A stretch of 64,000 bases of DNA, taken from the NCBI GenBank assembly GCA_025363655.1, contig JANYDK010000016.1, forward strand, positions 1 through 64,000, read 5' to 3'. Positions 9,270-30,630 of this stretch are shown here, in pieces. Below the pieces are notes generated by a model that was not told the origin of the DNA, did not search any database, and saw only the letters and a program-made list of their open reading frames with translations. Numbering within the stretch: position 1 is the stretch's first letter; each line of letters starts with the position of its first letter. The position numbers and the translations under genes were made by a program. This DNA is from Deltaproteobacteria bacterium (GTDB taxonomy: Bacteria; Myxococcota_A; Polyangia; Polyangiales; JADJMO01).

Positions 9270-9357
9270 GGGGAGGAGGGGGGAGGGGACGGGGAGCACG
9301 GGGGGATGGTAGCGCGTGGGCGCAGGCGCGGGCGCGTCGTGGCAAACTGTCGGGCTC

Positions 9358-10015: not shown

Positions 10016-11350
10016 ATGCGTGCCCGCTCACTCTTTCTGCCCAGCTTCTTCTTCGTCGTTTCGGCCTGCTCGAGCAAGGACCCCGCGCCCGCGAGCACGG
10101 CGGGCGCTGCGGACGACACCGGCGTGACGCCAGCGATCGATTCGGCGGTGCCAGGAGTCGATGCGTCGAAAGACGACACGCGACCGGCGACGGACACCAC
10201 GCCACCGTCGTGCGTGGAGACGGGCTGCGATGGGCTCGTGGCGCAGGAATGGGGGACATACACCTCCGTGCAAGGGACCGACGGGAAGACGCTCGGCGGC
10301 GTGCATCACGTCGACGAAGCGCTGCCTTCGTGGGTGCATCGTCGCAACTTCACCAACCCGAGCGAGTACTTCTTCGAGAAGCTCCCCGAGGAGCCGTTGC
10401 AGCAGCTCGAGACGCCGGTCATCTATTTCTGGTCGAAGAAGCCGATCGACGTCGAGGTGCAGGTTCGCTTCCCGCAGGGCGTCGTCGGTGAGTGGTATCC
10501 GGATGCGAAGACGTTCGCGCCGGCGATCGACTCGCTCACCAACGTCGCCAACGGCTCGATGACCTGGGACCTGAAGGTCGATCCGGGGATCTCGCCGTCG
10601 TCGTTCGCGCCGGTCGATCCGACCGAGATTTGGGCCCCGTCGCGCCACGTCGCCTCGACGCCGGTGCTCCTTCCCAACCTGAGCGGCGGCGGCGAGAGCG
10701 AGCAGTTCATCTTCTACCGCGGGCTCGGCACCTACGATGCGCCGATCTCGGTGACGTCGGGCGCCGATGGCGTGCTCCACGTGAAGAACGCCTCGAGCGA
10801 CGAGGTGCCGGCCGCGTTCGTGCTTCAGGTGATCGCGGACAAGGCCAAAATCGTGCCGATTGGTGCGCTTCATGCGGGCGCGACGCTCGACGTGACGCCG
10901 CCGGCAGCGACGCAACCGCTCGATACCTACGTCGTCGATGCGCAGCGCACGTTGAAGACCGCCCTCGTCGCCACTGGCCTCTACGACGACGTCGCGCAGG
11001 CGATGGTCGAGACGTGGACGCGGAGCTGGTTCAAGAACATGGGCCTCCGCGTGCTCTATGTCGCGCCTCGGAAGTGGACCGATGCTTGGCTGCCGACGAC
11101 CATCACGCCGACGCCGATCTCGCTCACGCGCACGCTCGTCGGACGGCTGGAGGTGATCACGCAGGCGGAGGAGACCGAGCTCGTCGCCAAGATTCGCGAG
11201 GCCGCGAAGACGCACGCCACCTTCGACATCGCCTCGCTCGGACGCTTCGCCGAACCGCGTCTGCGTCGCGCGCTGACGCTCCTGACGGCGCCGACCGATG
11301 ACCTCGTCTACGCCAAGGGTCTCATCGAGCAATCGCACGAACGTCCTTGA
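10016..11350 (+). CDS. Conserved secreted lipoprotein of unknown function
   Basis: 444 residues from the ATG at 10016. A type II signal peptide (basic MRAR, hydrophobic LFLPSFFFVVSAC) is followed by an Asp/Thr/Ala-rich linker of about 50 residues. The folded part begins with AQEWGTYTSVQGTDG and contains HHVDEALPSWVHRR, motifs I associate with uncharacterised secreted proteins of myxobacteria and planctomycetes. It contains many beta-rich segments and ends with a helical domain (AEETELVAKIREAAKT, RFAEPRLRRALTLL). No catalytic motif is recognised. Probably transcribed with the following cytochrome. Confidence 0.72.
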   Translation: MRARSLFLPSFFFVVSACSSKDPAPASTAGAADDTGVTPAIDSAVPGVDASKDDTRPATDTTPPSCVETGCDGLVAQEWGTYTSVQGTDGKTLGGVHHVDEALPSWVHRRNFTNPSEYFFEKLPEEPLQQLETPVIYFWSKKPIDVEVQVRFPQGVVGEWYPDAKTFAPAIDSLTNVANGSMTWDLKVDPGISPSSFAPVDPTEIWAPSRHVASTPVLLPNLSGGGESEQFIFYRGLGTYDAPISVTSGADGVLHVKNASSDEVPAAFVLQVIADKAKIVPIGALHAGATLDVTPPAATQPLDTYVVDAQRTLKTALVATGLYDDVAQAMVETWTRSWFKNMGLRVLYVAPRKWTDAWLPTTITPTPISLTRTLVGRLEVITQAEETELVAKIREAAKTHATFDIASLGRFAEPRLRRALTLLTAPTDDLVYAKGLIEQSHERP

Positions 11351-11421
11351 TTTTCAGCCAATCTCGCGCTGGTCGCGCGGGGGTGGTTGCTCGTGAAAGA
11401 GGTCCGTGGGAACGTCGCTTC

Positions 11422-12489
11422 GTGCGCGTCTCACGGACCTCGTTGCTCGTCGCGTTCGCGCTTTGCGCCTGCTCGTCGCACGCAGCCGAGGTCGTCGACT
11501 CTTCGGTGACGGACGGCAAGAGCGACGTGGCCGACGCACCTCAAGGGCACGACACGCGTGACTCGGGCACGCTCGTCGATGCGCCGGCTTTCACCGGTCC
11601 GAAGACGCTCGCCGAGACGGGGCTCTACTCCGACTTCGCGTCACGGACGCTCGCCGAAGGCGTCATCGCCTACGACGTGCGCTACCCGCTCTGGTCCGAC
11701 GGCGCAGGGAAGAATCGTCACCTGCTCCTCCCCAAGGGCACCCAAATCGACACGCACGATCTCGACGATTGGCGATTTCCGGTCGGCACCAAGCTCTGGA
11801 AAGAGTTCGAGCAAGGCGGCGTGCTCCTCGAGACGCGCTACCTCGAGAAGAAATCGGCAGCTCCCGGCGCGGATTCGTGGCTGATGGTCTCGTATGCGTG
11901 GAACGCGGATCACAGCGCGGCTCTCGCGGTGCCTTCGGGCGTCACCGGCGCGCTCGGAACGAGCTGGGACATTCCCGATCAAGACGCCTGCGTGCAATGC
12001 CACGAGGGCGTGATCGACACGGTGATCGGCGTCAGCGCGATGCAACTCGGGCGCGCGAGCGGGAAGGGACCGCTGAGCGATCTGGTGGCGCGGGGGCTCC
12101 TCAGCGATCCGCCGAGCGCAGAGCCGCAGCCTCCCGGCACCGGCGTCGTGCAAGATGCGCTCGGGTACCTCCACGGCAACTGCGGCCACTGTCACAACGA
12201 CACGAGCCCGCTCGCCGGCGTGAGGAAGATGCGCTTGCGTCTGCGCGTCGCCGACACCACGCCCGAGAGCACGCCGACGTACACGACGGCGATCGACGCG
12301 CCGATGACGCATCAATGGGATGGCGGAGCGAACCTCGGCATCGTCCGTGGCGATCCAGACCATAGTCAGGTTTTTTATCGAATGAGCCATCGTGGCGATG
12401 GCTACGAGATGCCGCCGGTGGGCTCGAAGGTCGTCGACGCGTCGGCGGCCGAGGTGATACGCGCATGGATCACCGGCCTCGCACCGTGA
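11422..12489 (+). CDS. Dihaem c-type cytochrome lipoprotein
   Basis: About 355 residues from the GTG at 11422, giving a good lipoprotein signal (MRVSRTSLLVAFALCAC). A TTG at 11347 is a weaker alternative. Two haem c attachment sites are visible, CVQCHEG and CGHCHND, and a possible distal Met in YEMPPVGS. Upstream, PLWSDGAGKNRHLLLPKGT and WRFPVGTKLWKEF match a family of secreted proteins often annotated as SO2930-type dihaem cytochromes. Likely transfers electrons in the periplasm or outer membrane. The partner is unknown. Confidence 0.82.
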   Translation: MRVSRTSLLVAFALCACSSHAAEVVDSSVTDGKSDVADAPQGHDTRDSGTLVDAPAFTGPKTLAETGLYSDFASRTLAEGVIAYDVRYPLWSDGAGKNRHLLLPKGTQIDTHDLDDWRFPVGTKLWKEFEQGGVLLETRYLEKKSAAPGADSWLMVSYAWNADHSAALAVPSGVTGALGTSWDIPDQDACVQCHEGVIDTVIGVSAMQLGRASGKGPLSDLVARGLLSDPPSAEPQPPGTGVVQDALGYLHGNCGHCHNDTSPLAGVRKMRLRLRVADTTPESTPTYTTAIDAPMTHQWDGGANLGIVRGDPDHSQVFYRMSHRGDGYEMPPVGSKVVDASAAEVIRAWITGLAP

Positions 12490-13801: not shown

Positions 13802-16078
13802 ATGATGACCACGAACGCGACTTCTTCGATCTCCCCTGCTCCCGCGCACCTCAGCCAAGGGGGACGCCTCGTCTCGGCCGAGGGACAGACGCTCCCGCTC
13901 CTCGGCACGTCGATCGGGCTCGACGCCTTCGGCGGCATCGCCCGCGTCACGCTCGAACAACGTTTTCGCAACGTGCACGCCGAGCCCCTCGCGGTCACCT
14001 ACAGCTTGCCGCTCCCTGCCGACGGCGCCGTCAGCGGCTTCTCGTTCCGCATCGGCGCCGTTCGCACGGTCGGAGCGATCGACAAGCGCGCGAGCGCCCG
14101 CGAACGCTACGAAGCGGCGCTGATCGACGGCCGGAGCGCGGCGATCCTCGAGCAAGATCGCTCGAGCCTCTTCACGCAAGAAATCGGCAACATCCCGCCC
14201 GGTGAAGAGGTGATCGTCGAGGTGATGGTCGATCAGCGCCTTCGTTGGCTCGACGAGGGCGCGTGGGAGTGGCGCTTTCCCACCGTCGTCGCGCCCCGAT
14301 TTCTCGGCGAAGATGGGCGCGTGGCCGACGCCGCGCGGGTCACGCACGACGTCGCCGAGGGCGAGCTCGACGCGCGCTTCACCATCGGCTGCGCGATCCG
14401 CGACGGCCTCGCGCAAGATCGGTCGCCGGAGTCACCTTCGCACGCCTTGAAGACCAAGCTCGGCGAGGGGGCGACGCGTGTCGAGCTGCACGAAAAGGCC
14501 GGAGCGCGCCTCGATCGTGACGTGGTTGTGCGCTGGATGGTGGCGACGCCGAAGATCGGGCTCACGCTCGATACCGGACGCGCGTCCGACGATCGTGGCG
14601 TCCGCGCGGCGGGCAAGCACACGCATGGTCTGCTCACGGTGGTTCCTCCGGCGCCAAAGGCCGAGCGTCGCGCCGGCGTCGTTCCGCGCGATCTGATCGT
14701 GCTCCTCGACACCAGCGGCTCGATGTCCGGCGAGCCCATCGACCAGGCCGTGCGCGTGACGACCGCGCTCGTCGATACCCTCCGCGATCACGATCGACTG
14801 GAGCTCATCACCTTCGGCGACGCGCCGGAACGCTGGAAAAAAGAGGCGATCATCGCTTCGGCAGCGGCGCGCAAAGAGGCGGTCGCTTGGCTTCGCAGCC
14901 GTCGTGCGTCGGGAGGAACCGAGATGCGCGCCGGCATCATGGAGGCGCTCACCGGGCTTCGTGACGACGCGCAACGCCAAGTGGTGCTCATCACCGACGG
15001 CCTCATCGGCTTCGAGTCGCAGGTCGTGGCGGCGATCTGCGATCGGCTGCCGAAGGGTTCGCGCGTGCACACCGTCGGCGTCGGCTCTGCCGTCAATCGC
15101 TCGCTCACCGGACCGGCAGCGCGCGCGGGGCATGGGCTCGAGGTCATCGTCGGCATCGGCGAAGATCCGGAACGCGCTGCTTCGCGTCTGGTCGCGCGCA
15201 CGGCCGAGCCGATCGTCGTCGACCTGGTCGTCGAGGGCTCGGCGCTCGTCGAGCATGCGCCGGCGAAGCTGCCCGATCTCTTCGCGGGGGCTCCGGCGCT
15301 GATCGCGCTCGCGCTTCGCCCCGAGGGCGGCGATCTGTGCGTGCGGGGTCGAACGCGTGAAGGGACGTGGGAACGTCGGATGAAGGTGCCGGCGCGCGCC
15401 GCAGGAGAAGGAAACGCCGCGGTCGTCGCCCTCTTCGGTCGAGAAGCAGTGGAAGACCTCGAGACGCGACTCGCGGCGGGCAGCGACAAGCGCGAGATCG
15501 ATGCGACGATCGAACGCATCGGGCTCGAGCATCGAATCGCGACGCGGCTGACGTCGTGGATCGCGGTGACCGAAGAGCGCACGGTCGATCCGGACGACGC
15601 GCTCCGCCGCGAGCGCATGCCGCACGAGCTGCCGTACGGCATGTCTGCCGAGGGACTCGGGCTGCGCAGGCCGACGACGACGGCGCCGATGCACGCCGCG
15701 CCGATGACAGAGCTCGGCCTCCTCTCGCTCGGTGCGCCGGCCGGAATGCCGATGCCTGCTCCGATGGCGATGCCTGCTCCGATGGCGATGCGGCCCGCGT
15801 CACCGATGCGCGCGCACTCGGAACGCGCGAAGAGTGCGGCATACGCCGGGCCCCCGCCGCCAGCGCAGGGAGCAGCGCCGCCGGCACCCGCGACCTACTC
15901 GGCACCGTCGAACATCGCGAAACCGATGAGCGCTCCTTTGCCGCAGGCGCCGTCCGAGATGCGAGAGCAAGCGCTGCTCCCGCGGAAGAACCTCCGCTCG
16001 CGGATCCTCGGCTTCTTGGTGCTCTTGCTCCTCGCCCTCGCGCTGGTCGCGCTGATCGTGTTCCTCCTCCGACGCTGA
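13802..16078 (+). CDS. VIT and VWA domain membrane protein
   Basis: 758 residues, start supported by GGAGGG ten bases upstream. Residues about 20-150 form a vault protein inter-alpha-trypsin domain (GGIARVTLEQRFRN, DKRASARERYEAAL, SLFTQEIGNIPPGEEV). Residues about 295-470 are a von Willebrand A domain with intact MIDAS (DTSGSMSGE) and TDGLIGFE. A Pro/Ala/Met-rich linker with a 15-bp coding repeat (PMPAPMAMPAPMAM) precedes a C-terminal membrane span (ILGFLVLLLLALALVALIVF), so the domains are probably cytoplasmic and tail-anchored. Similar VIT-VWA proteins are common in myxobacteria; function unknown, probably protein-binding scaffold. Leads an operon with an ECF sigma factor. Confidence 0.88.
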   Translation: MMTTNATSSISPAPAHLSQGGRLVSAEGQTLPLLGTSIGLDAFGGIARVTLEQRFRNVHAEPLAVTYSLPLPADGAVSGFSFRIGAVRTVGAIDKRASARERYEAALIDGRSAAILEQDRSSLFTQEIGNIPPGEEVIVEVMVDQRLRWLDEGAWEWRFPTVVAPRFLGEDGRVADAARVTHDVAEGELDARFTIGCAIRDGLAQDRSPESPSHALKTKLGEGATRVELHEKAGARLDRDVVVRWMVATPKIGLTLDTGRASDDRGVRAAGKHTHGLLTVVPPAPKAERRAGVVPRDLIVLLDTSGSMSGEPIDQAVRVTTALVDTLRDHDRLELITFGDAPERWKKEAIIASAAARKEAVAWLRSRRASGGTEMRAGIMEALTGLRDDAQRQVVLITDGLIGFESQVVAAICDRLPKGSRVHTVGVGSAVNRSLTGPAARAGHGLEVIVGIGEDPERAASRLVARTAEPIVVDLVVEGSALVEHAPAKLPDLFAGAPALIALALRPEGGDLCVRGRTREGTWERRMKVPARAAGEGNAAVVALFGREAVEDLETRLAAGSDKREIDATIERIGLEHRIATRLTSWIAVTEERTVDPDDALRRERMPHELPYGMSAEGLGLRRPTTTAPMHAAPMTELGLLSLGAPAGMPMPAPMAMPAPMAMRPASPMRAHSERAKSAAYAGPPPPAQGAAPPAPATYSAPSNIAKPMSAPLPQAPSEMREQALLPRKNLRSRILGFLVLLLLALALVALIVFLLRR

Positions 16079-16989: not shown

Positions 16990-17285
16990 CGCGTGGTCGT
17001 CACCAGCTTGCAGAACGAATGCGTGAGCGGCGTCTCGCGACGTGATGCCCACGGCTCGGCGAGCCCGAGCGCGCTCTTGAAGAACTGACGATGCTCGTCG
17101 ACGAGACTGACGAGCGCGACCGGCGCACCGAGCAAGTGCTTCGCCAGCCGCGTCAGCCGATCGAAAGCGGCCTCTGGCAACGTGTCGAGGAGCTGGTCTT
17201 CCTCAACGCCTCCAGCCGCGATGCTTCGGAGTGGTCGGGCATCGGAGGGGCGATGATAGCTCCACTCGGCTATCGTGCTCGCCAT
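16990..17285 (-). pseudogene. Truncated GAF-domain sensor gene
   Basis: The minus strand between the small protein and the signal peptidase gene reads a clear N-terminal GAF segment: EDQLLDTLPEAAFDRLTRLA, LGAPVALVSLVDEHRQFFKS, LGLAEPWASRRETPLTHSFC. Homology then stops after about 95 residues, where the frame turns into antisense of the neighbouring gene. The rest of the GAF fold and any kinase or PAS domains are missing. A possible ATG at 17285 shares bases with the start of the plus-strand gene. I read this as a deletion remnant. Confidence 0.65.
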
Positions 17286-17961
17286 GCGCGTGCGAGAGAT
17301 CCGCGACCGGCACCGCTTCCGCTGCCTCATCGCACGCTCGATGCTCTCGCTCTCGACGCTCGCGCTGTGCACATGTCACTCGGCGCCACCGGCGATCTAC
17401 GCGGTGGGCGACACGATGCTCCCGTCCTTCGCCGTCGGTGAGAACATCGCGGTCGGCGCCACCGACGCGACGTGGCGCCGCGGAGACATCGCCGTCTTCG
17501 CCTGGGCAGGAGACCGCGATCGCATGTATGTGAAGCGAATCATCGGCGTCGCCGGCGACGCAGTCGCAGTGAAGGGCACCGAGGTGTCCATCAACGGAAC
17601 GCCGATCGCCCGTTGTCACGTCGGACACTGGTCCTTCCAACTCGCGGACCAGAGCGCGCACGAAGGCGAGCTCTGGCTCGAGGCCTTCGGCGCGAATCGA
17701 TGGCTCGTCGTGCATGATCCCGCGGGAATTCACGCGCCACCCGGAGGACCTTGGACGGTGAGCCCGGGTGAAGTCTTCGTGATCGGCGACAATCGAGAGA
17801 ACAGCTTCGATACGCGGGTGTGGTTCGAGCAGACGAAACGCGCGCTGCCGATCGAGTGGATCGTCGGGGTCGCTCGGAGTGAAGCACCTCCGCATCTTCC
17901 GGCGGGAGCGGAGGCGCTGCGCGGGAAGTTGGAGGAGTGCGTTGCGAGGCTGAGCGGATGA
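17284..17961 (+). CDS. Signal peptidase I homologue with Thr replacing the catalytic Ser
   Basis: About 225 residues from the ATG at 17284. It shows the S26 peptidase boxes: VGDTMLPSFAVGENIAVG (box B), YVKRIIGVAGDAV with the general-base Lys (box D) and GDNRENSFDTRVW (box E). In box B the nucleophile Ser of the usual SMxPT is Thr. The N-terminus is a single hydrophobic stretch ending LALCTCHS instead of the usual membrane anchor pair, so it may be a lipoprotein or a single-span protein. Could be a Thr-nucleophile peptidase or an inactive relative. Ends 54 bp before the Clp-like operon on the same strand and may be co-transcribed. Confidence 0.8.
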   Translation: MRVREIRDRHRFRCLIARSMLSLSTLALCTCHSAPPAIYAVGDTMLPSFAVGENIAVGATDATWRRGDIAVFAWAGDRDRMYVKRIIGVAGDAVAVKGTEVSINGTPIARCHVGHWSFQLADQSAHEGELWLEAFGANRWLVVHDPAGIHAPPGGPWTVSPGEVFVIGDNRENSFDTRVWFEQTKRALPIEWIVGVARSEAPPHLPAGAEALRGKLEECVARLSG

Positions 17962-18015: not shown

Positions 18016-21000
18016 GTGTTTGCGATTCTCTCTTTCTTGCCCGGGGACTCTGCCTTCCGAACGCTGATCGTGGTGCGTGAGCTCGCCGGGGGCGAGGTCG
18101 TGGCGTATCCCGCAGCTGAGCCGCAGTGGGCGAGCTTCGGAGAAGAAGAAGAGGTGCTGCTCGAACAGCGCGTCTTTCTCACCTCGTATCTTTCACGGGT
18201 GCCGCCAGACGTGGTGGCGCGGCATGCGTTGCCGGCGCGGACGCGACTGCACGTTTCGAGCGTGGTGGTGCCGCGCGACGATCTTCCGCGGCGCATCGCG
18301 CTCGAAGAGCCGCTCGACATTCCTTGTCTGGTCTTGCCCGCGAAGCATCCGGAGGAGAACGCGCGGCCGGAGTCGTGGGTGTGCGTGCTGCCTCTCGCGC
18401 ACACGTTTCACCTTGCTGCGGCCGAGAGTCGCGCCCTCGACGAGCGTGACGAGCGCGAACGACTCGACGAGGCGATCGAGCACGAGGTGAAGCGGATGGT
18501 GAGCGCCGAGGAGCGCACGCCGTTGCAGTGGCTCGATCTGGTGCCCGATGGCGAGTCGCGCCTCGTCACCCTCGATCTCTTCCTCGATCGCGGCGAGACA
18601 GGGCCGGCAGGGCGAGCGGCGTCGCTCGCGAAGGCCCTCGCAGAGCGGGAAAAGAAGCGTGCGGCGCTCGCGGTCCTGGAGTCGATCGGGACGCCGCTCC
18701 ACCTCGCGGACGGCTCCCATCCTCGGCCGCTCGTCGGACGTGACGACGAGCTCGAGCTCCTTCGCTCGCTTCTCGGCGGCGAGACCCGCGGCAGCGTGCT
18801 CATCGTCGGCGGCGATCGCGTCGGCAAGACCGCCCTCTTCCAAGCGTGGGTCCACCGCGAGCGCGCGGCCGAGAAGGCGCGACCGATCTTCGCCACCTCG
18901 GGCGCGCAGCTGATCGCCGGCATGAGCGGTCTCGGCCAATGGCAAGAGCGCGTGCGGCGCGTGATGCAAGCGGCCGCCGAGCTCGACGCGGTGCTCTACT
19001 TCGACGACCTCGGCGACCTCTTCGCCGACCGGCCGACGGGCAACGTCGATTTGGCGGGCGCGATGAAGCCATGGCTCGACGACGCGAAAGTGCGAGTGGT
19101 CGGAGAGCTGCGCGAGTCGCGGGTCGATCTCGCCGAGTCGCGACACGTCGGGTTTTTCTCGCTCCTCGCGCGCCTGCGCGTGCCACCGATGAAGACCCGC
19201 GAGGCCGAGGCGGTGCTCCGCGCGCTGATCGCCCACGACGGCCAGCACGCGCCGCACAAGCCGCAGCTCGATCCGATCGCGGCGGTGCCGATGATCGATC
19301 TCGCCGAGCGCTATCTCCCCTACGAGCAATTTCCCGGCAAGGCGGTGCGGCTCTACGACGAGCTGCGCGGCGCACACGAGATGTCGTCGGCGCGCCGAGG
19401 TGACCCTGACGAGGCAGCACCGAAGCTGGGGCTCACCGAGCTCTACGAAGGCTTCAGCTTGCGTAGCGGCGTGCCGGTCTTTCTCCTTCGCGAAGATCGC
19501 GTGCTCCTCCAGGTCGAGGTCGAGGCGCAGCTTCGCGCACGGGTGGTCGGCCAGGAAGACGCCGTGCGCCGCGTCGCCGAGACGGTCTGCATGGTGAAAG
19601 CCGGGCTCCAGCCGCCGGGGAAACCGCTCTCGACGTTCCTCTTCGTCGGACCCACCGGCATCGGAAAGACCGAGCTGGCGCGTGCGCTCGCCGAGCTCCT
19701 CTTCGGCTCCGAGGCGCGGCTGGTGCGCTTCGACATGAGCGAATTCATGGATCCGCTCGCCGCCGATCGCCTGATCCGCGGCAACGAACGCGGCGAAGGA
19801 CTGCTCACCCGGCGCGTGCGCGAACAGCCATTTTGCGTGATTTTGCTCGATGAAATCGAGAAGGCGCACGCGGCCGTCTTCGACTTGCTCCTCCAAGTCG
19901 CCGGCGAAGGACGTCTGACCGACGCGCGTGGGCGCACGGCGCACTTCCAGAACGCGATCCTCATCCTCACGAGCAACCTCGGCGCGACGCACGGGCGCAG
20001 CGAGATGGGCTTCGCGCGCGAGGGAAAAGCGAGCGACGAGACGCAATACCTCCGCGTCGTCCACGAGACGTTCCGCCCCGAGATGGTCAACCGTCTCGAT
20101 CGCATCGTCGTCTTCCGCAGCCTCCAGCGCTCCGAGCTCGCACGCATAACAACGCTATCTATCGCCAAGATCTGCACGCGACGTGGGCTCGCAGCGGCCA
20201 GCGGCGATCTCGAGGTGAGCGAGGCGGCGAGCACTCGACTCGCCGACGACGGGTTCTCCGCGGCCTATGGTGCGCGCTCGCTGCGCAGGCACCTCGAGGT
20301 GCACCTCGTCGATCGGATGGCGTCGCTCATCTCCGGGTTCGGCGGCATCGACGGACATCGCGTCGCGGTCACCGCCGAGGGCGAGCCCGAGCCGATCGGC
20401 CAAGTGGCGAGCGAACTCGAAGACGGCGTTCGCATCTCGATGATTCGCGCGGAGAAGCGCGCCATCACCCGGGCCAGCCGCGGCATGGGCGCGATCTCCT
20501 CGATTCGTCGGGAAATGCAGCGCCTCTTGCGTCTGCCGCCGATCGAGCAGCTGCGCGATCAGGTCGAGTATCTGATCACCGAGCTCAACTACGGCAGCGG
20601 CAACAAGCGGGCGAAGAAGCTCTCCGGCGCGGCGCTCTCGCTCTCGCAGGCCGAGCACCATCGGCTCTCGACCATCCACGCCGCCCTCGATCTCGGCTTC
20701 CGCGACGTCTGCACGCTCGAAGAGCTGGCGCTCGCCGGCTACTTCGAAGGGCACCCTCTCGACGAGCTGAGCGACGAGGCGCACCGCACGCGAGGAAGCT
20801 TCCGCACCGCGATGGCGAGGGCGCTCGTCGCGCAGGAGACGCGGCGAGACTCGATCGCGCTGCTCCTCCAAGAGCTCGACGACGGGCGAGCGTTCAACTT
20901 CTATCTCGCACCGCTCCTCGCCGACGCCGCGCGAAGGCGCTTCATCACCACGGTGCACTTCGAGGCCGAGGGCGGCACCGGTCCCTACGGTCGTTTCGCC

Positions 21001-21591
21001 GCGGCGATGAGCGGCGAGGACGCGCTCGTGCACCTGCAGACGTCGAAGGCACGATGCGCGGTGGTCTTCGTGCAGGGCGAGATGTGTGCGCCGTTCCTCG
21101 CGCTCGAAGGCGGCATCCATCGGTTCGACGGGCTCCACGCCGAGTACCCAGAGGTCATCCTCTCGGTGCAGAGGCTGGCCTTTCGTCCGTCGCTCTCCAC
21201 CGCCGAATGGCGCGGAAAAAAGGTGGTTCCGGCGCTCCCCAACGTCGTCGCCGAGCTGCGTCGTGTGACGCCGACTCGGCACTTCGACGCACGCGAAGGC
21301 CGACTGACGTTGCTGAAGAAGGTGCGTATGGCGATGACGCACGAGGAGTACTTCCCGCGCCTCGAAGAGATCGCGCTCGAGCACCTCCTCCTCTTCGAGA
21401 AAGACGAAGACCTCGAGCGCGAAGACTCCTTCACCGTCGTCCTCGACGGCCTCGACGACATCTACGAGATCGCCAAAACCAACAAAATCATGGCGATCAA
21501 GGAGTACCGCGAGCGCTTCGGCGTCGGCCTCAAGGAGGCGAAGGACGCCGTCGAGCTCTTGGTCAAACGCCGCACGGACGAGGGCGCATGA
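18016..21591 (+). CDS. ClpB-like double AAA+ protein with release-factor-like region and L7/L12-like C-terminus
   Basis: 1191 residues (GTG start; no clear ribosome site). Residues 1-230: a beta-rich N-domain unrelated to the Clp N-repeat but recognisable in the next two proteins. AAA+ 1: Walker A GGDRVGKT near 266, pore region AGMSGLGQW near 301, Walker B VLYFDDLGD (Glu replaced by Asp). AAA+ 2: GPTGIGKT near 545, FDMSEF, Walker B VILLDEIEKA, TSNLG, arginine finger PEMVNRLDR and sensor 2 GARSLRR; the GYVG pore loop is missing (RLIRGNERGEG). Residues about 950-1110 resemble a PCRF domain (AEGGTGPYGRF, MSGEDALVHLQ, ALEGGIHRF). The last 43 residues match L7/L12 CTD (IMAIKEYRERFGVGLKEAKDAVELL). 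Overlaps the next gene by ATGA. Inferred role: ribosome-linked remodelling. Confidence 0.82.
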   Translation: MFAILSFLPGDSAFRTLIVVRELAGGEVVAYPAAEPQWASFGEEEEVLLEQRVFLTSYLSRVPPDVVARHALPARTRLHVSSVVVPRDDLPRRIALEEPLDIPCLVLPAKHPEENARPESWVCVLPLAHTFHLAAAESRALDERDERERLDEAIEHEVKRMVSAEERTPLQWLDLVPDGESRLVTLDLFLDRGETGPAGRAASLAKALAEREKKRAALAVLESIGTPLHLADGSHPRPLVGRDDELELLRSLLGGETRGSVLIVGGDRVGKTALFQAWVHRERAAEKARPIFATSGAQLIAGMSGLGQWQERVRRVMQAAAELDAVLYFDDLGDLFADRPTGNVDLAGAMKPWLDDAKVRVVGELRESRVDLAESRHVGFFSLLARLRVPPMKTREAEAVLRALIAHDGQHAPHKPQLDPIAAVPMIDLAERYLPYEQFPGKAVRLYDELRGAHEMSSARRGDPDEAAPKLGLTELYEGFSLRSGVPVFLLREDRVLLQVEVEAQLRARVVGQEDAVRRVAETVCMVKAGLQPPGKPLSTFLFVGPTGIGKTELARALAELLFGSEARLVRFDMSEFMDPLAADRLIRGNERGEGLLTRRVREQPFCVILLDEIEKAHAAVFDLLLQVAGEGRLTDARGRTAHFQNAILILTSNLGATHGRSEMGFAREGKASDETQYLRVVHETFRPEMVNRLDRIVVFRSLQRSELARITTLSIAKICTRRGLAAASGDLEVSEAASTRLADDGFSAAYGARSLRRHLEVHLVDRMASLISGFGGIDGHRVAVTAEGEPEPIGQVASELEDGVRISMIRAEKRAITRASRGMGAISSIRREMQRLLRLPPIEQLRDQVEYLITELNYGSGNKRAKKLSGAALSLSQAEHHRLSTIHAALDLGFRDVCTLEELALAGYFEGHPLDELSDEAHRTRGSFRTAMARALVAQETRRDSIALLLQELDDGRAFNFYLAPLLADAARRRFITTVHFEAEGGTGPYGRFAAAMSGEDALVHLQTSKARCAVVFVQGEMCAPFLALEGGIHRFDGLHAEYPEVILSVQRLAFRPSLSTAEWRGKKVVPALPNVVAELRRVTPTRHFDAREGRLTLLKKVRMAMTHEEYFPRLEEIALEHLLLFEKDEDLEREDSFTVVLDGLDDIYEIAKTNKIMAIKEYRERFGVGLKEAKDAVELLVKRRTDEGA

Positions 21592-24500
21592 ACGTCACCG
21601 TCCCCGTCTACCAGCGCAGGCGCGGCGCGTTCTTCCACTGGACGACCGTCGGTCTAGGCGAGCACACCGAACGGCGCGTGGGGGTCAACGCGCACAAGGT
21701 CGAGCAGCAGCTGGTGGAGGCGATTCGCACCAAGGTCGAGCGGGTCTCTCCGCGCGAGCTCGTCGCCTTCGCCCTCAAACGCGGGACTCGCCTCGCGCGC
21801 GTGCGAATCGAGCTCACGCTTCGTGGCGAGGGCGGCAGGCGCAAGGTCTCTGGTCTCTGTCCCATCGTCCTCGAGCCGCATTTCATCGGCGAAGGTCGCG
21901 AGCTCGTCATCGGTTATCACCCGGAGCGACCCTTCGAGTGGTTCCCGGTGCGCGGCGACGACGATCTCGCCGAGCAAGCGACCTCGTACCTGCAGAAGGT
22001 CTGGTCGGCGGTATCCGAAGACCTCGTCGAGCTGCTCTTCACCGACGGCAAGGACACGCTCAAGCTCGTCTCCTTCAGCGCGCGACCGAAGTCCCTGCTC
22101 GACGAGCTCCCCGAGAAGCAGAAAGGCGTCTGGGACGATCTGCGCGCCGATCCGCTCCGCGGCGAGAAGCAGAAGTCGCATGGATTCAAGGTGCTCCCGA
22201 CGCTGGCGACCGACCTCACGGCGCGGCTCGCCGGCGATGGAAGCGCGCGCGCAGCGATCGGAATGCCGCGCTCACCCTATCGCGAGCAGCTGCAGATGCT
22301 CCTCGCCGGCAAGCAGAAGCAGCCGGTGATCGTCGTCGGCGCGCACGGCGTGGGGAAGTCGACGGTGCTCGCGCAGTGGGTGGCCGACTTGCTCGTCGCC
22401 GAAGATTTCGACTCGCACAAGAACCTCGACAAGGTGCACCACGTCGTCCAGCTCGGCGGCAAACGAATCATCGCCGGCATGTCGTACGTCGGTGACTGGG
22501 AGAAGCGCTGCGTCGAGCTCGCCGACGATCTGACCGGAAAAAAGCGCATCGCCTGGATCGACGACCTCCACCTCTTCGGACAGATCGGGCGCGCCCGCGA
22601 CAGCGATCGATGCCTCGCCGACTTCTTCCGCGGGCCGCTCGCCCGTGGAGAGATCGTCCTCGTCGGCGAGTGCACCGAAGAACAACTGCGACGTCTGGAA
22701 GAGGACGCGCCCGCGTTCGCCGCGCTCTTCACCCGCGTCTTCGTCGGTCCGACGACGCCCGCCGAGACGATGCGCATCCTCGTGCACGAGGCGCGTGAGT
22801 TGGAGATTGCGCGCGACGTCGAGATCGAACCGTCCGCCTTTCGCACCATTCTCGAGCTCGGTCCCGCGCTGACGCCCGGTCAGGCCCTCCCTGGCCTGGC
22901 GCTCGATCTGCTCCGCGCGCTCGCCCGCGAGTTCGAGGGCAAGCCAGACGAGTCGAACGAGATCGGCGTCGATCAAGTGATCGCGCACCTCTCGTCGCGC
23001 ACCGGTTTACCGTGGATTCTCCTCGCGAACGAGAAGCCGCTCCTCCGCGACGAGCTCCTCGGCGACCTCTCCGGTCGCGTGCTCGGGCAAGACGTGGCGG
23101 TGAACGCCGCCGCCGATCTGGTGATGCGCATCAAGGCCGGGCTCGTCGATCCGAAGCGGCCGTACGGCGTCTATCTCTTCACCGGACCGACCGGCACCGG
23201 CAAGACCGAGCTGGCGAAGACGCTCGCCGAATATCTCTACGGCGGAGCCTCGCGGCTCGTTCGCTTCGACATGAGCGAGTACGGGACGCCCGACGCCGCC
23301 GGTCGATTGATCGGCGACGCGTGGACCCCCGAGGGCGCCCTCACCCGTGCAGCGCAAGAGCAGCCGTTCTGCGTCGTCCTGCTCGACGAGATCGAGAAGG
23401 CGCACCCCTCGGTGCTCAACCTGCTCTTGCAACTGTTCGACGAGGGACGCCTCACCGACGCGCGTGGCGAGACCGCGAGCTTCACCCAAGCCGTCATCGT
23501 CATGACCTCCAACCTCGGCGCCAAGCCGCAAAATCCGCTCGGATTCGGCGCTGGATTCGACGCCGTGATGCAGGACGTGGCACGGGCGGTCCGCGAGTTC
23601 TTCCCGCCCGAGCTCTTCAACCGCATCGATCGCATCGTCCCCTTCCGGCCGCTCGATGCGACGGTGGCGATCGAGGTGGCGCAGAAAGAGCTGAGCAAGC
23701 TCTTGGCACGGCGCGGCCTCGTCGATCGCAACGTCTTCGCGAGCAGCAGTCGTTCGGTCGTCGAGCGCGTCGCGCGCGAAGCGTTCGAGCAACGCGACGG
23801 CGCGCGCTCGCTCAAGCGCTTCCTCGAAGATCGCATCGCCGGAAGGCTCGCCGAAGAGATCTCGGCGAGCCCGGGCGCGTCGATGCAGCTCGTCCGCATC
23901 GAGGACGCGGGAGATGGCGAGCCCTTCGTCATCACGCGTGAGCCGCTCGTCGAGGCGACGCCGCTCACCGAGGCCTCGTTCGCGCTCGAACCGCTCCTCG
24001 AGCTGCCGCTGCCCGAGCTCTTGAACGAACTGGCACGCGCGATCGCGCCGCTCGGTGAGGACGGCACGCTGACGCCGACGTTGAGCCGTATTTCCGAGGA
24101 GATTCGCTTCCACCTCGGCGAGCACAACCGCGGCCTCCGCGATCACGGCGAGCTCCTCTACAACCTCGATCACATGCGGCACTCGCTCGACGCCTTCCGC
24201 GATCGGGCCTCGCGCGTGCTCACCACCTCGCGTGAAGTGCGCGAGGAGGGATATGAAGATCTCGAGCTGGCGCGGTTCGCCTGGGACACGGTCGACATCG
24301 GCACCGGTCCTTCGCACACGCGTTGGCGCTACCGGGTGCTCTCGCGTTCGGCGTTCACCCGTGGGGTCGCCGCCGCGACCCGTCACGAGGCGCTGGCGTG
24401 CATCGCCGAAGCCCATTTTCTCAAGCGATCGCTCTTTCGCGCGCACGATCCGAGTCGTCATGCGGTGGTGCTCGAGCTCGCGCGGCTCGGTGAGGTGCGC

Positions 24501-25142
24501 GGTCAGTCGCGGCTCGTCACCTCCGAAGGCGGCGACAAGGGGCGCGGCGGGTTCCTCTCGCTTCTCGCGAGAGCCTATGCGGCGCGACGAGGTGAGCTCG
24601 ACGACTTCGCGACGGTGCGCGACGGCGTCGCGATCGGCGGAGCCGGGGGCCCACTCGAAGTCTCGGACTCCAACGTCTTCGCGCTCAAGCTCGTCGGCCT
24701 CTGCGTTCGCGACGTCTTCGAGCTCGAAGAGGGGACGCACGTCGTCGAGCCCTTGAGCGGACCGCCCGAGCTGGTGCGGGTTCGCATCGTCGATGGCGCG
24801 CCCCCGCTCGAGGTCGTCTCGACACTGCTCGCAGCTAGGCAAGAGCGCGAACGCGCGCGCGCGATCGCGAGCGAACGCCCCTCGCCCGACGCGCTCACCC
24901 CGATGGTGCGCCGCGTACGCCTCGGTGCTTCGTCCCGTGCAGGAAAACCGGCCCCATTCGGCGTCGAAGACTTTCGCATGAGCTTCGTCGACACCGTCTA
25001 CGCACGCAGCGTCGCCGAAGCGCTCGAACCTCTCTGGCTCCTTCAACTCTCCCGTGTCGACGACGAGAAGGACGCTGAGCGCAGGAAGACCGAAACGACC
25101 GAGAAAACCGAGCAGACCGAGACGAAGGGAGGCGACTCGTGA
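21588..25142 (+). CDS. Second ClpB-like double AAA+ protein with release-factor-like region
   Basis: 1184 residues from the ATG in the ATGA overlap at 21588. N-domain: VTVPVYQRRRGAFFHWTTVGLG onward, about 230 residues. AAA+ 1: GAHGVGKS near 251, pore region AGMSYVGDW with a Tyr, Walker B IAWIDDLHLF (second acidic residue Asp). AAA+ 2: GPTGTGKT near 533, FDMSEYGTPDAAGRLI, Walker B VVLLDEIEKAHPS, PPELFNRIDRIV and GARSLKRFLE. The loop after RLIG lacks GYVG. Residues about 930-1085 again look PCRF-like (LARLGEVRGQSRL, FELEEGTHVVEPL) without a GGQ motif. A Glu/Lys/Thr-rich tail ends in a GTGA overlap with the third gene. Probably assembles with its neighbours. Confidence 0.82.
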   Translation: MNVTVPVYQRRRGAFFHWTTVGLGEHTERRVGVNAHKVEQQLVEAIRTKVERVSPRELVAFALKRGTRLARVRIELTLRGEGGRRKVSGLCPIVLEPHFIGEGRELVIGYHPERPFEWFPVRGDDDLAEQATSYLQKVWSAVSEDLVELLFTDGKDTLKLVSFSARPKSLLDELPEKQKGVWDDLRADPLRGEKQKSHGFKVLPTLATDLTARLAGDGSARAAIGMPRSPYREQLQMLLAGKQKQPVIVVGAHGVGKSTVLAQWVADLLVAEDFDSHKNLDKVHHVVQLGGKRIIAGMSYVGDWEKRCVELADDLTGKKRIAWIDDLHLFGQIGRARDSDRCLADFFRGPLARGEIVLVGECTEEQLRRLEEDAPAFAALFTRVFVGPTTPAETMRILVHEARELEIARDVEIEPSAFRTILELGPALTPGQALPGLALDLLRALAREFEGKPDESNEIGVDQVIAHLSSRTGLPWILLANEKPLLRDELLGDLSGRVLGQDVAVNAAADLVMRIKAGLVDPKRPYGVYLFTGPTGTGKTELAKTLAEYLYGGASRLVRFDMSEYGTPDAAGRLIGDAWTPEGALTRAAQEQPFCVVLLDEIEKAHPSVLNLLLQLFDEGRLTDARGETASFTQAVIVMTSNLGAKPQNPLGFGAGFDAVMQDVARAVREFFPPELFNRIDRIVPFRPLDATVAIEVAQKELSKLLARRGLVDRNVFASSSRSVVERVAREAFEQRDGARSLKRFLEDRIAGRLAEEISASPGASMQLVRIEDAGDGEPFVITREPLVEATPLTEASFALEPLLELPLPELLNELARAIAPLGEDGTLTPTLSRISEEIRFHLGEHNRGLRDHGELLYNLDHMRHSLDAFRDRASRVLTTSREVREEGYEDLELARFAWDTVDIGTGPSHTRWRYRVLSRSAFTRGVAAATRHEALACIAEAHFLKRSLFRAHDPSRHAVVLELARLGEVRGQSRLVTSEGGDKGRGGFLSLLARAYAARRGELDDFATVRDGVAIGGAGGPLEVSDSNVFALKLVGLCVRDVFELEEGTHVVEPLSGPPELVRVRIVDGAPPLEVVSTLLAARQERERARAIASERPSPDALTPMVRRVRLGASSRAGKPAPFGVEDFRMSFVDTVYARSVAEALEPLWLLQLSRVDDEKDAERRKTETTEKTEQTETKGGDS

Positions 25143-27526
25143 GCAAGCCGAGCCTCCGCGTCTATTTCGTCACCCACTCGATCCCGGCCGTTCCTCCGGA
25201 AGAGCGCGCGAGCGACGAGACGTTGGAGAAAGCGACGAACGCGCGCGCGATTGGCGCTGCGGGTGAAGTCGCCGAGGAGACACGGGTCACCGGACGGCTG
25301 ATGCGCGCGTGGGACGAGCTCTTCGACAAGCCGGCCCCGGCGGCCTTCGGCGTCAGCGAATCCGACGTCCTCGAACAGCTCGAGAGACAGCTCGTCGGCC
25401 TCACCGCGACCGGCGAATCCTTGACTCGTTATCTCTGGACCGAAGAATTCCAGACCCGCCGCGTTCGCGTCGACGTGCACCCACTCTCGTCGGTGAAGAA
25501 GCGCCCCGTGATCGGCAAGGAGCTGATCCCCCTGCAGCTCACGTACGCGTGGAGCAAGATGAGCGGCGGCGCCTATCGCGTGATGGTGCCGCGCTTCGGC
25601 GGTTGGTTCATCCTCGAAGATCTCGCCCTCGCGCCCGATGTGCTGCGACACGCGGTGAGCAGTTGGCTCCTCGGGAGCAACCCCCGTTGGGTCTATGATT
25701 TCCGCTGGGAAGGCGAAGAGTGGGTGCGCGAGTGGTCGCCCGCGCTGCTCACGCGCACCGACGTCGCCGAGGAGAAGGAAGACGACGCGAAGAAGCACCC
25801 GGTGCTCGCGCAAATCGGCGAAGAGCTCGTCGAGCTGGCGGCGCGCGGAAAATTGCCCGCCACCGTCGGCGACTCGAGCGAGCTCGTCGCCCTCGAAGAG
25901 CGTCTGCGCAAGCGGCCATTCCCTTCGCTCCTCGTCGTCGGCCCGCCCGGCGTCGGCAAGACGACGTTCGTGCGCCGGCTCGCGCGTCACTTCGCGCAGA
26001 AGCGTAGCGACGCGAAGAAGAAGGGCGGCCTCGCACCGCCGCGCATCTGGTCGACCTCGGGCGAGAAGATCATCGCCGGCATGGTCTACCTCGGCATGTG
26101 GCAAGAGCGCTGCCTCCGCATCGTCGCCGAGCTCGCCGAAGACTCCGACTATCTCTACGTCGACCGGCTGACGTCGATCCTCCGCGCGCAGCCCGACGGT
26201 GGCACCATCGCCGACGCCCTGACGCCCTCGGTGGTCTCCGAAGAGATCTCGCTCATCGCCGAGTGCACCGAGTCCGAGCTCGAATGGGCGAAGAGGCGCG
26301 CGCCGGCGCTCCTTCGGCGCTTCACGATCGTCCGCCTCAGCGAGACGGTGCCGACCGCGACGATCGAGCTCCTCCATCTCCATGCGGCGAAGAAGGGCGC
26401 GGCGATTCACCCCGCCGGCCTCCATCGTCTGGTGCAACACCTCGCCGCCTTCGCGCGCGATTCAGCCTTTCCTGGCAAGGGATTTCGCTTCATCGATTGG
26501 CTGACGAGACAACGCAAAGCCGATCGCGAAGGCGCTCCGCGGCTCTACCCACGCGACGTCTCCGAGGCGTTCGCGCGCTACTCGGGCGTCTCCCTCGATC
26601 TCGTCGCCGACGAGCGCCCCGCCTCGGCAGCTCACTTCGCTACGCGCCTGCGCGACGGCGTCGTCGGACAGGATCACGCATGCTCGGCCTGTGCGCGTGC
26701 GCTCGCTCGCCTCAAGGCCGGCCTCGACGATCCCGAGCGCCCGTGCGGCACGTTCCTCTTCGTCGGCCCCACCGGCGTCGGCAAGACCGAGCTCGCCAAA
26801 CAATTCGCGCGCGTCGCCTTCGGAGAAGATCGTTTGATTCGCTTCGACATGAGCGAATACGGCCTCCGCGGCTCGGGTCAGCGCCTCCTCGACTCTTCCC
26901 CCGGCGTGACCTCACTCGCGCAGCTCGTCCGTCAACAGCCGCTCTCGCTCGTCCTCTTCGACGAGGTCGAAAAGGCCAGCCCCGACGTCTTCGATCTCCT
27001 CCTCTCGGTCCTCGGCGAAGGCCGTCTCACCGACAGCTCGGGCCGCATCGTCGACTTCCGCGGCACCTTCATCGTCATGACGTCCAACCTCGGCGTCAGT
27101 AGTCGTGCGCCCGTCGGCTTCGGCGACGCCCCTGCCCCCGACTTCGCCCGCGCCGTGCGCGCGCACTTCCGACCGGAGCTCTTCAACCGCATCGACGACG
27201 TCCTCTCGTTCCGGGCGCTCACCCGCGAAGACGTCATCGCCATCGTCGACCTCGAGCTCGCGAAGCTCGCGCAACGCACCGGCCTCCTCCGCCGCGGTCT
27301 GCGCCTACGCGTGTCGAGCGAAGCGAAGTCACTGCTGGCGGAGCTTGGCTATCACCCGACGTTCGGCGCGCGGCCGCTGAAGAGGCTGCTCGAAGAGCGG
27401 ATCATGACCCGGCTCGCCGCGGAGATGGCAGCAGACGCGAAATTTCGCGAGCGCGAGGTGAAGGTGGTGGCGGAGGGCGAAGAAGCGGGCAGCGGGTTCG
27501 TGGTGAGAATCACCCGCCCGGAGTGA
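25139..27526 (+). CDS. Third ClpB-like double AAA+ protein
   Basis: 795 residues from the GTG in the GTGA overlap at 25139. N-domain residues 1-230, related to those of the other two. AAA+ 1: GPPGVGKT near 267, pore region AGMVYLGMW, Walker B YLYVDRLTS, where the glutamate is Arg, so hydrolysis by this ring is doubtful. AAA+ 2: GPTGVGKT near 543, FDMSEYGLRGSGQRLL, Walker B LVLFDEVEKASPD, PELFNRIDDVLSF and GARPLKRLLEERI; again no GYVG pore loop. It ends at the ClpB D2 C-terminus with no release-factor-like extension. No ClpP-docking loop (IGF/L) is seen. Its last 17 bases overlap the convergent lipoprotein gene. Confidence 0.85.
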   Translation: MSKPSLRVYFVTHSIPAVPPEERASDETLEKATNARAIGAAGEVAEETRVTGRLMRAWDELFDKPAPAAFGVSESDVLEQLERQLVGLTATGESLTRYLWTEEFQTRRVRVDVHPLSSVKKRPVIGKELIPLQLTYAWSKMSGGAYRVMVPRFGGWFILEDLALAPDVLRHAVSSWLLGSNPRWVYDFRWEGEEWVREWSPALLTRTDVAEEKEDDAKKHPVLAQIGEELVELAARGKLPATVGDSSELVALEERLRKRPFPSLLVVGPPGVGKTTFVRRLARHFAQKRSDAKKKGGLAPPRIWSTSGEKIIAGMVYLGMWQERCLRIVAELAEDSDYLYVDRLTSILRAQPDGGTIADALTPSVVSEEISLIAECTESELEWAKRRAPALLRRFTIVRLSETVPTATIELLHLHAAKKGAAIHPAGLHRLVQHLAAFARDSAFPGKGFRFIDWLTRQRKADREGAPRLYPRDVSEAFARYSGVSLDLVADERPASAAHFATRLRDGVVGQDHACSACARALARLKAGLDDPERPCGTFLFVGPTGVGKTELAKQFARVAFGEDRLIRFDMSEYGLRGSGQRLLDSSPGVTSLAQLVRQQPLSLVLFDEVEKASPDVFDLLLSVLGEGRLTDSSGRIVDFRGTFIVMTSNLGVSSRAPVGFGDAPAPDFARAVRAHFRPELFNRIDDVLSFRALTREDVIAIVDLELAKLAQRTGLLRRGLRLRVSSEAKSLLAELGYHPTFGARPLKRLLEERIMTRLAAEMAADAKFREREVKVVAEGEEAGSGFVVRITRPE

Positions 27527-28197: not shown

Positions 28198-30630
28198 TCA
28201 GCTCCCCGCGAGGTCGAACTGTTCGAGGTGATACTCGCGGTGCGGCACGAGCATCAGCTGACGCTGGTAGCGACGCTCGGCCTCTTTGGTGACGTCGCGC
28301 GCCTCCGATTGGAGGAAGTCGATGACGGAGGGGTGCGCGTTGACCACCACTTTGTAGCCTGGCAACGACTGCTTTTCGCGCCTGATTTGCCGGAGAATCT
28401 CGAAGGCGATGGTCTGCCGTGACTGCAGCTGTCCGGTGCCGTCGCAGTAGAAGCAGGGCTCGTGCAAAGTGCGGCCGAGCGACTCACGCGTGCGCTTGCG
28501 GGTCATCTCGACGAGGCCGAGCTCGCTGATGCGATTGATCGACGTCTTCGCCTTGTCGACGAGGAGCGCCTGCTCGAGCGCGCGATAGACCTTCTCGCGA
28601 TTGCTGTGCCGCTCCATGTCGATGAGATCGAGCACGATCAAACCGCCGATGTTACGGAAGCGTAACTGGTAGGCGATCTCGGTGACGGCTTCGAGGTTGG
28701 TCTGGAGAATCGTGTCTTCGGGATCTTTGTTGCCCTTGCCGACGAAGCGACCGCTGTTGACGTCGATGGCGGTGAGCGCCTCGGCTTGATCGATGATCAG
28801 GTGACCGCCGCTCGGCAGCGGAACTTTGCGCGAGAGCGCGCGGGCGATTTCGTCCTCGAGACCGTAGGCGTCGAAGATCGGCTCGCCGCCGCTGTAGAGC
28901 TCGAGGGCGCCGGCGCGCTCGGGCATGAACATCTCGAGGAAGCGCTGCAGACGCTGGAACTGCTCTTTGTCGTCGATGACGATCTTCTCGACGTCGTCGG
29001 TGAACATGTCGCGCGCGGTGCGCAAGACGACGTCCAGCTCTTGGAAGAGGAGCGACGGCGCCTTCACGCCCACTTCCTTCTTCTTGGCGATTTCGCCCCA
29101 CAAACGCACGAGATAACCGACGTCCGCCTTGAGCTGCTTCTTCGTCAGGCCCTCGGCGACGGTGCGGACGATGAGCCCACCTTGCGGCGGCTTCATCGCT
29201 TCGATGGCCTCGCGCAGACGCTTGCGCTCGAGGTCGGAGCCGATGCGGCGCGAGACGCCTACGTGCTCGACGGTCGGCATGTAGACGACGTAGCGACCGG
29301 GCAGCGAGACGTGGCTGGAGACGCGCGCGCCCTTGGTGCTGATCGGGTCCTTCGTCACCTGGACGACGACCTCCTGACCCTCTTTCACGACCTCGTTGAT
29401 CGGCGTCGAGCGACCGAGGCGGAGACCGCCTTCGCGCGGCTCGCGACGTCCGCCGTCGCGTCCGCCGTCGCGTCCGGCGTCACGTCCGGCGTCACGTCCG
29501 CCTTCACGGTTACCTTCGCGTCCGCCTTCACGTCCGCCGCTGTCGCGTCCGCGATCGCCACCACGACCGCGATCACCGCCGCCGCTCGTACCGCTGCTGC
29601 TGCTGCTGCTGCCGCTGCGCGCGCGATCACCGCCGCGACCGCCGCTGCGTCCGCGACCACCACGTCGTTCGTTGGCCGGAGACGGCTTGATGTCGCGCGC
29701 GAGTCCAATCGAACCGGTCGCGGCCGGCGCCGGTGCGGCTGCTTCATCGCGGGGCTCGCGGGGCTCGCGGGCTTCGCGGGGCGCTCGAGCTTCGCGCGGT
29801 TCGCGGGGCTCACGTGCTTCACGCGGGACCGCCGGCGCGGCCGGAACTTCGACCGACTCGCTGCCCTCGGCGGCGACGGCAGGCGGGAACGAGGACGAGG
29901 TCCCCTCCGCGGCGGCGGGCGCGGCACCTTCGGCCGGGGCTTCGCCTTCCTCTGCTTTGACGTCGGTCTCGATCTCGTCGCGCTTGGCGCCGCTGCGCCC
30001 GCCACGACGACGACGACCACGACGCGCGGCCATGTCGGCGGTGTCGGTTCGCTTGCGCACGACGACGTCACCATCGGCGAGCTCGCGCGTCTCACGGAGC
30101 ACCGGCGCGTCGGGCTCTTCGAGAATGACCCCGGGGTCGATCGGCCTATGGGAGCTGGCCTCGGCGAGCGCGTCACCGATGGGATCTCCGTCGTCGCCCT
30201 CGACTTCGTCACCGTCGTCGTCGCCCTCGACCGCGTCGTCGACCTCGTCGCCCTCGATGGGCAGCGATGCGGCGCTCGTCGCGGCTGCAATTTCGCCCTC
30301 GGGCGCGTCGACGTCGATTTCGATCTCTTCGTCGGCCGCCTTCGCGCGCTGCCGTGGCTCGCGCTGCTTGCTGCCGGCGAGGTAGGCCTCGAAGTCGGCG
30401 GGGCGGATCAGATCTTCGACGTGGAGGAACGCCGCGCGCTCCTCGCCGATGTCGATGAAGGCCGCCTGCATGCCGGGAAGCACGCGCGAGACCTTGCCGA
30501 GATAGATGTTGCCGACGAGCCCCTTCTGCCCGCGTCGCTCGACGTGGAGCTCGCTGAGGATGCCGTTCTCGATGAGCGCGACACGTGTCTCGCCGATGTC
30601 GCAGTTGATGACCAGAGTGTTCTTCGCCAC
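28198..30630 (-). CDS. Ribonuclease E/G family endoribonuclease with large low-complexity insertion in the S1 domain
   Basis: 810 residues, GTG start at 30630. RNase E/G cuts single-stranded RNA in mRNA decay and rRNA maturation. The start LVINCDIGETRVALIENG and the S1 strand NIYLGKVSRVLPGMQAAFID are typical. The S1 domain is then split by about 320 residues of acidic, Pro/Arg and Gly/Arg/Asp repeats before EVVVQVTKDPISTKGARVSS resumes it. The catalytic part follows (DLIDMERHSNREKVYRALE, DVNSGRF) and the zinc-link motif CFYCDGTGQ. The RG-rich insert probably binds RNA or proteins. Downstream of dtd by 27 bp. Confidence 0.95.
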   Translation of the reverse strand: MAKNTLVINCDIGETRVALIENGILSELHVERRGQKGLVGNIYLGKVSRVLPGMQAAFIDIGEERAAFLHVEDLIRPADFEAYLAGSKQREPRQRAKAADEEIEIDVDAPEGEIAAATSAASLPIEGDEVDDAVEGDDDGDEVEGDDGDPIGDALAEASSHRPIDPGVILEEPDAPVLRETRELADGDVVVRKRTDTADMAARRGRRRRGGRSGAKRDEIETDVKAEEGEAPAEGAAPAAAEGTSSSFPPAVAAEGSESVEVPAAPAVPREAREPREPREARAPREAREPREPRDEAAAPAPAATGSIGLARDIKPSPANERRGGRGRSGGRGGDRARSGSSSSSSGTSGGGDRGRGGDRGRDSGGREGGREGNREGGRDAGRDAGRDGGRDGGRREPREGGLRLGRSTPINEVVKEGQEVVVQVTKDPISTKGARVSSHVSLPGRYVVYMPTVEHVGVSRRIGSDLERKRLREAIEAMKPPQGGLIVRTVAEGLTKKQLKADVGYLVRLWGEIAKKKEVGVKAPSLLFQELDVVLRTARDMFTDDVEKIVIDDKEQFQRLQRFLEMFMPERAGALELYSGGEPIFDAYGLEDEIARALSRKVPLPSGGHLIIDQAEALTAIDVNSGRFVGKGNKDPEDTILQTNLEAVTEIAYQLRFRNIGGLIVLDLIDMERHSNREKVYRALEQALLVDKAKTSINRISELGLVEMTRKRTRESLGRTLHEPCFYCDGTGQLQSRQTIAFEILRQIRREKQSLPGYKVVVNAHPSVIDFLQSEARDVTKEAERRYQRQLMLVPHREYHLEQFDLAGS
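29440..29830 (-). repeat. Tandem coding repeats in the RNase E/G insertion
   Basis: Two blocks of imperfect short tandem repeats. Around 29440-29560 a roughly 12-bp unit (CGTCCGCCGTCG-like) encodes (GRDGGRDA)-type repeats. Around 29745-29830 a 9-15-bp unit encodes (EAREPREPR)-type repeats. Such blocks vary in copy number between strains, and their reading frame is kept. Confidence 0.7.

Follow-up and report, generated by a model that had tools for sequence, protein, structure and literature searches.

A three-gene bacterial cassette predicted to encode a hetero-oligomeric Hsp100/Clp-class AAA+ machine with release factor 2-like domains

Three overlapping genes in the window (the whole 64,000-nucleotide stretch of DNA analysed here) encode related AAA+ proteins, P1, P2 and P3, and on balance their sequences favour a single hetero-oligomeric, two-tier machine of the Hsp100/Clp class that probably docks on the ribosome through domains resembling release factor 2 (RF2). 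All three genes lie on the forward strand. Subunit 1 (P1; 18016..21591, GTG start, 1191 aa) consists of a probable HicB-like N-domain, two AAA+ modules (D1 and D2), an RF2-like C-extension and a tail resembling the C-terminal domain (CTD) of L12. Subunit 2 (P2; 21588..25142, ATG start, 1184 aa) has the P1 layout without the L12 tail, and subunit 3 (P3; 25139..27526, GTG start, 795 aa) ends after N-domain, D1 and D2. Direct reading of the sequence places stop/start overlaps on the same strand at the P1-P2 junction (ATGA, 21588..21591) and at the P2-P3 junction (GTGA, 25139..25142). An earlier note on this DNA had described three adjacent genes of these lengths joined by ATGA and GTGA, and their coordinates, common strand and overlaps were all verified; equal dosage of the three proteins is only suggested by the 4-nt overlaps. 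Its domain layout, an N-domain of about 230 residues (here ~215-240 aa) followed by two AAA+ modules, was found in all three proteins but had overlooked the C-terminal extensions of ~400 aa behind D2 in P1 and P2, and with the RF2-like domains a likely link to translation.

The cassette belongs to the Hsp100/Clp class, as judged by its tandem AAA+ modules with ClpB_D2-small, and is neither ClpB, ClpA or ClpC nor a release factor. In Pfam, the D2 of each subunit matches AAA_2 together with ClpB_D2-small, and both modules are covered by the ClpA model of NCBIfam, but NCBIfam scores are 214-328 bits against equivalog cut-offs of 885-1417 for ClpB, ClpA and ClpV, including 304-328 bits for the ClpB model TIGR03346, below its cut-off of 1232. 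Motifs were counted in aligned orthologues (29 P1, 28 P2 and 31 P3) and 43 other members of the family, 131 in total. The Walker A and B, sensor 1, Arg finger and sensor 2 of D2 are kept in 131/131; D2 is catalytically intact in the window P1 (19456..20385, forward strand; no catalytic motif missing, GYVG pore loop gone) and P2 (22959..23912, forward strand). D1 retains Walker A, but the Walker B Glu persists in only one of the 29 P1, none of the 28 P2 and one of the 31 P3 sequences, being replaced by Asp in the D1 of the window P1 (18721..19455, forward strand; pore Tyr lost) and mostly by Arg in P3, and the D1 Arg fingers are lost or replaced in most P1, P2 and P3 proteins. The D1 pore Tyr differs by subunit, being invariant in P3 (31/31), present in 19/28 P2 and absent from P1 (0/29). 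The D2 pore loop GYVG occurs in 0/131 members as against four of the five canonical Clp proteins of the genome, which argues against a ClpB-like substrate grip in D2. The M-domain is likewise absent, the median D1-to-D2 spacing being 143-152 residues in the family and 250 in the canonical Clp proteins of the genome. Some members have a tripeptide of LGF/IGF type in the loop region of D2, at a place comparable to that of the ClpP-binding loop. Complementation of Arg fingers in trans was considered and dropped, as the 'RRF' Arg finger of the window P3 D1 is not kept in orthologues. ClpB is reported to need D1 arginines for oligomerisation (PMC4239642); with the corresponding arginines lost here, D1 assembly would have to differ. 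The description 'ClpB-like' in the earlier note thus holds for D2 only, there being no Clp_N match, no M-domain and a catalytically degenerate D1. Canonical ClpB, ClpA and ClpV are encoded by separate genes of the window genome, which also encodes a 932-aa diverged ClpB-like protein (locus L030, G000:C22, 5061-7859) with an odd N-terminal region that scores far under the ClpB cut-off.

The C-extension of P1 (20386..21588, forward strand) is derived from RF2, a strongly supported origin on which profile searches, HMM-HMM comparison and fold search concur, and it retains domains 1, 2 and 4 but not domain 3, which bears GGQ. In hhalign it matched RF2 at 93.7% (E 1.9e-7), with a score of 61.6 as against ~21 at most when RF2 was reversed or column-shuffled. 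Single-gene homologues with the P1/P2 layout were identified in Chloroflexota (loci L034 and L035) and Armatimonadota (L033), and HMM-HMM comparison matched single-gene C-extensions to RF2 at 99.5% (E 4.8e-23) over domains 1, 2 and 4, with domain 3 appearing as an alignment gap. Pfam PCRF, a release-factor domain, scored above cut-off in the C-extensions of L033, L034, L035 and gene 1 of a diverged cassette (L032), and phmmer linked L035 to RF2 structures at 1e-6. A C-extension profile free of release factors reached RF2 in the PDB at 4.7e-6, and in genomes it recovered open frames of 354-380 aa, release-factor-sized and apparently RF1/RF2. For the P1 extension AlphaFold2 gave a model of low confidence (pLDDT 51), whose input alignment took in the RF2-like relatives; all Foldseek matches of this model with E <0.001 were RF1/RF2 (best 5.8e-6), and VIA-align superposed the same low-confidence model on RF2 1gqe with Z 8.7. 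The P2 extension (23913..25139, forward strand) matched RF2 at only 5% when compared directly but the C-extensions of L033-L035 at 93.5% (E 2.3e-7, hhalign), pointing indirectly, via these intermediates, to a probable RF2 origin at one remove.

Domain 3 with its GGQ motif is the catalytic part of RF2 and the SPF motif is its stop-codon reader. The sequence GxGGQ was found in 0/86 C-extensions and 26/26 RF2 sequences, and SPF in 0/86 and 25/26, respectively, indicating an RF2-derived module that has lost the stop-codon motif and would not release peptides by the known mechanism. What remains follows RF2 (prfB) in unchanged order, namely domain 1 (PCRF), domain 2 with E-x-G-x-H and the C-terminal stretch of domain 4, but is fused behind an AAA+ D2 module; this backbone can still be recognised in several phyla, among both single-gene and first-subunit members. 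The RF2 gene of the window genome itself (L113, about 1475-1492) apparently keeps the classical programmed frameshift signal (AGGGGG...CTTTGAC), as judged by eye.

At the end of P1 a stretch resembling the ribosomal L7/L12 C-terminal domain (21472..21558, forward strand) matched PF00542 at 26.4 bits with the C-extension alone and 24.6 bits with the whole protein, on either side of the 25.9-bit cut-off. This tail was seen only in the window genome and in one relative of the same family (L014), and a whole-genome search for the L7/L12 CTD returned the P1 tail, true L12 and one other protein above cut-off. A 41-bit match to the same domain lies in a 771-aa open frame on the P1 contig, 7 kb past the window (G000:C113:70979-71164, locus L026).

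The N-domains of the three subunits are homologous to one another, that of P1 (aa 1-230; 18016..18705, forward strand) matching that of P2 (21588..22238, forward strand) at 92-94% and that of P3 at 38-43% (hhalign), and no Clp_N match was found in P1, P2 or P3. An AlphaFold2 model of the P2 N-domain (pLDDT 69) aligned with the antitoxin HicB 6g1n (VIA-align Z 7.9), and an N-domain profile reached the same protein with E 0.0015. Foldseek by itself gave nothing significant for the N-domain, and on this moderate evidence a HicB/UPF0150-like fold is regarded as probable only.

Among 379 genomes of the same phylum P3 was found in 31, and in 27 of these a linked P1 or P2 partner is present on the P3 contig; most of these 27 loci were read, and two of the 27 rest on less, G253 lying outside the loci read, with its P2 unseen, and G020 being interrupted by contig ends. 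Most linked loci, as read, have the order P1-P2-P3, with 4-nt ATGA or GTGA overlaps at 24/27 P2-P3 junctions and 4-nt overlaps at 19/27 P1-P2 junctions, where a further two are one-base overlaps of TGATG type. In the remaining four genomes (G047, G310, G280 and G358) P3 is unlinked and P1-P2 are still adjacent elsewhere. A phylogenetic tree resolved P1, P2 and P3 each as one clade with 100% SH-aLRT support. The three paralogues thus behave as a conserved unit, and the scattered, unordered genes that the earlier note had named as evidence against its proposal were not what relatives within the phylum showed. Co-inheritance even where the genes are unlinked fits an obligate complex rather than three independent chaperones. 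Distribution is nonetheless patchy, the P1 C-extension being matched in 13 of 57 near relatives, which indicates that the system is not essential housekeeping.

The long-long-short order recurs in a second cassette type (L145-L149, L152 and L182) and a third (L161), both more diverged. The three kinds of gene are unlinked in a Saprospiraceae genome (1102, 1102 and 785 aa), where each pairs with one L161 gene at 99-100%, and the second-position genes of all three cassette types cluster at 98%. A P3 search of genome contigs gave mostly ordinary ClpC/ClpB/ClpX-type matches, family members being only L032-L035 and L049; additional Chloroflexota AAA matches (L187-L190) clustered outside the family and were rejected. 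A homo-oligomer encoded by one gene is the probable starting point of the family, followed by triplication. Two genomes (G310 and G280) each carry a P1/P2/P3 set and, in addition, one of the second cassette type, with the genes mostly unlinked on different contigs. At L020 with L163 (G055), about 9 kb separates P1 and P2, and this stretch includes the gene of a Ser/Thr-kinase-like protein of 1751 aa that has an ATPase segment (L020, 14090-19345). Between genes 1 and 2 of the diverged cassette at L032 lies a 484-aa protein (7880-9334) with a signal-peptide-like start, outer-membrane-like by eye.

No neighbouring gene was common to most loci, weak partial matches being confined to 2-4 loci and some flanks being common to one close pair. 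In the window a signal-peptidase-like S26 gene (17275-17961, forward strand) lies 54 bases upstream of P1, and downstream an RNase E/G gene with a thioredoxin-like domain lies on the reverse strand (28198-30630); neither is conserved beside the cassette in relatives. Further upstream are a VIT and VWA domain protein (13802-16078) and a weak planctomycete-type cytochrome c match, under cut-off (11347-12489). A defence-system library gave only generic AAA matches to the cassette, tRNA and Rfam searches had no match within the window, and a promoter scan of the window was at chance level. Terminator-like sites in the window were somewhat more frequent than in shuffles but were mostly inside genes.

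In the machine that we favour, the D1 tier would bind nucleotide and hold P1, P2 and P3 in one mixed ring, perhaps with two copies of each, and D2 would supply the force, much as in the analogous Pex1/Pex6. In that peroxisomal heterohexamer D1 binds nucleotide without hydrolysing it and presumably aids assembly, the force coming from D2 (PMC9265785). The likeness, two tiers built of distinct subunits with a hydrolysing D2 and a non-hydrolysing D1, is one of analogy with a ring composition that we infer here, since Pex1/Pex6 belongs to the eukaryotic classical AAA family, has two subunits, aromatic D2 pore loops and no release-factor domain, and is no relative. The RF2-like domains would sit on the D2 face, given their position behind D2, and would attach the machine to the ribosome, at the release-factor/GTPase-centre site or close to it, neither reading stop codons nor hydrolysing peptides; with the SPF motif lost, such a domain could be reused as a mere scaffold. 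The motor would then remodel or clear something at the ribosome, for which a stalled nascent chain, a factor or mRNA are guesses. A more specific and more tentative version, to which we would give rather less than even weight, is an obligate three-subunit Hsp100 docked through decommissioned RF2 domains and pulling a ribosome-bound client, in effect a bacterial counterpart of Vms1-Cdc48 made from unrelated parts. Vms1-Cdc48 of eukaryotic ribosome quality control likewise joins a release-factor-like protein to an AAA+ motor, but its components are separate proteins from another release-factor superfamily and another AAA+ family, and the comparison is again analogy only (PMC6514570).

The retained portion of RF2 might alternatively serve as a structural or substrate-adaptor module within a three-subunit AAA+ complex that has no role at the ribosome, a reading that we consider less probable and yet a serious competitor. 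It agrees with the loss of SPF and GGQ motifs from all 86 C-extensions, and the strong divergence of the extension in P2 and its absence from P3 mean that ribosome-specific surfaces may be free of constraint. Persistence of a recognisable RF2 backbone across several phyla speaks against it, as does the addition in one lineage of an L12-like tail, itself a translation-linked module.

That P1, P2 and P3 are instead three independent homohexameric chaperones, merely co-transcribed and each with its own substrates, appears unlikely. To our knowledge, the known bacterial Clp/Hsp100 motors (ClpA, ClpB and ClpC) are indeed homohexamers, acting in general protein quality control, and the D2 of every subunit here is complete, Arg finger and sensors among its features, so that each subunit could in principle build an active D2 ring. 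Such independence sits poorly, however, with the co-occurrence of P3 with P1-P2 even when unlinked, the long-long-short order kept in several cassette types and matched by the three kinds of gene in the Saprospiraceae genome, the widely kept 4-nt overlaps and the subunit-specific D1 signatures. Far less probable still, and already contradicted, is the reading of the genes as a usual ClpB/ClpA/ClpC cassette, set apart by divergence only, that acts as a ClpP partner or DnaK-dependent disaggregase. The Pfam and NCBIfam assignments of D2 to ClpB/ClpA and the LGF/IGF-like tripeptide of some members would agree with it, but scores far below the equivalog cut-offs, the missing M-domain, GYVG and Clp_N, the lost D1 catalytic residues and the separate canonical Clp genes of the genome do not.

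The cassette shares with ClpB/Hsp104, ClpA and ClpC the tandem AAA+ arrangement and a D2 of ClpB type, in which the small subdomain, sensor 2 and Arg finger are present, but differs from them in comprising three co-inherited paralogues, in lacking the D1 Walker B Glu and Arg fingers, GYVG and the M-domain, and in having a probable HicB-like N-domain in place of Clp_N and an RF2-like C-extension. ClpI of Actinomycetota is also a divergent double-AAA+ Clp class recognised by bioinformatics, but its ATPase modules are intact, and it retains translocation motifs as well as an M-domain (PMC10149685). A review of release-factor evolution makes no mention of Clp proteins (PMC6514570), and no description of an RF2-Hsp100 fusion or of the three-gene cassette was found in a search confined to open-access papers. 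An obligate three-subunit hetero-oligomeric Hsp100 would be, as far as we found, the first in bacteria.

If this interpretation is correct, a co-inherited three-subunit Hsp100 with a degenerate tier would provide a bacterial test case for specialised subunits in AAA+ rings, in which the single-gene relatives of Chloroflexota and Armatimonadota and the three-gene sets found elsewhere mark the states before and after. The cassette suggests a ribosome-acting motor with a piece of RF2 on two of its subunits, and the fusion of an ATP-driven motor with a release factor that lacks its catalytic domain may point to an unrecognised bacterial route for applying force to ribosomes.
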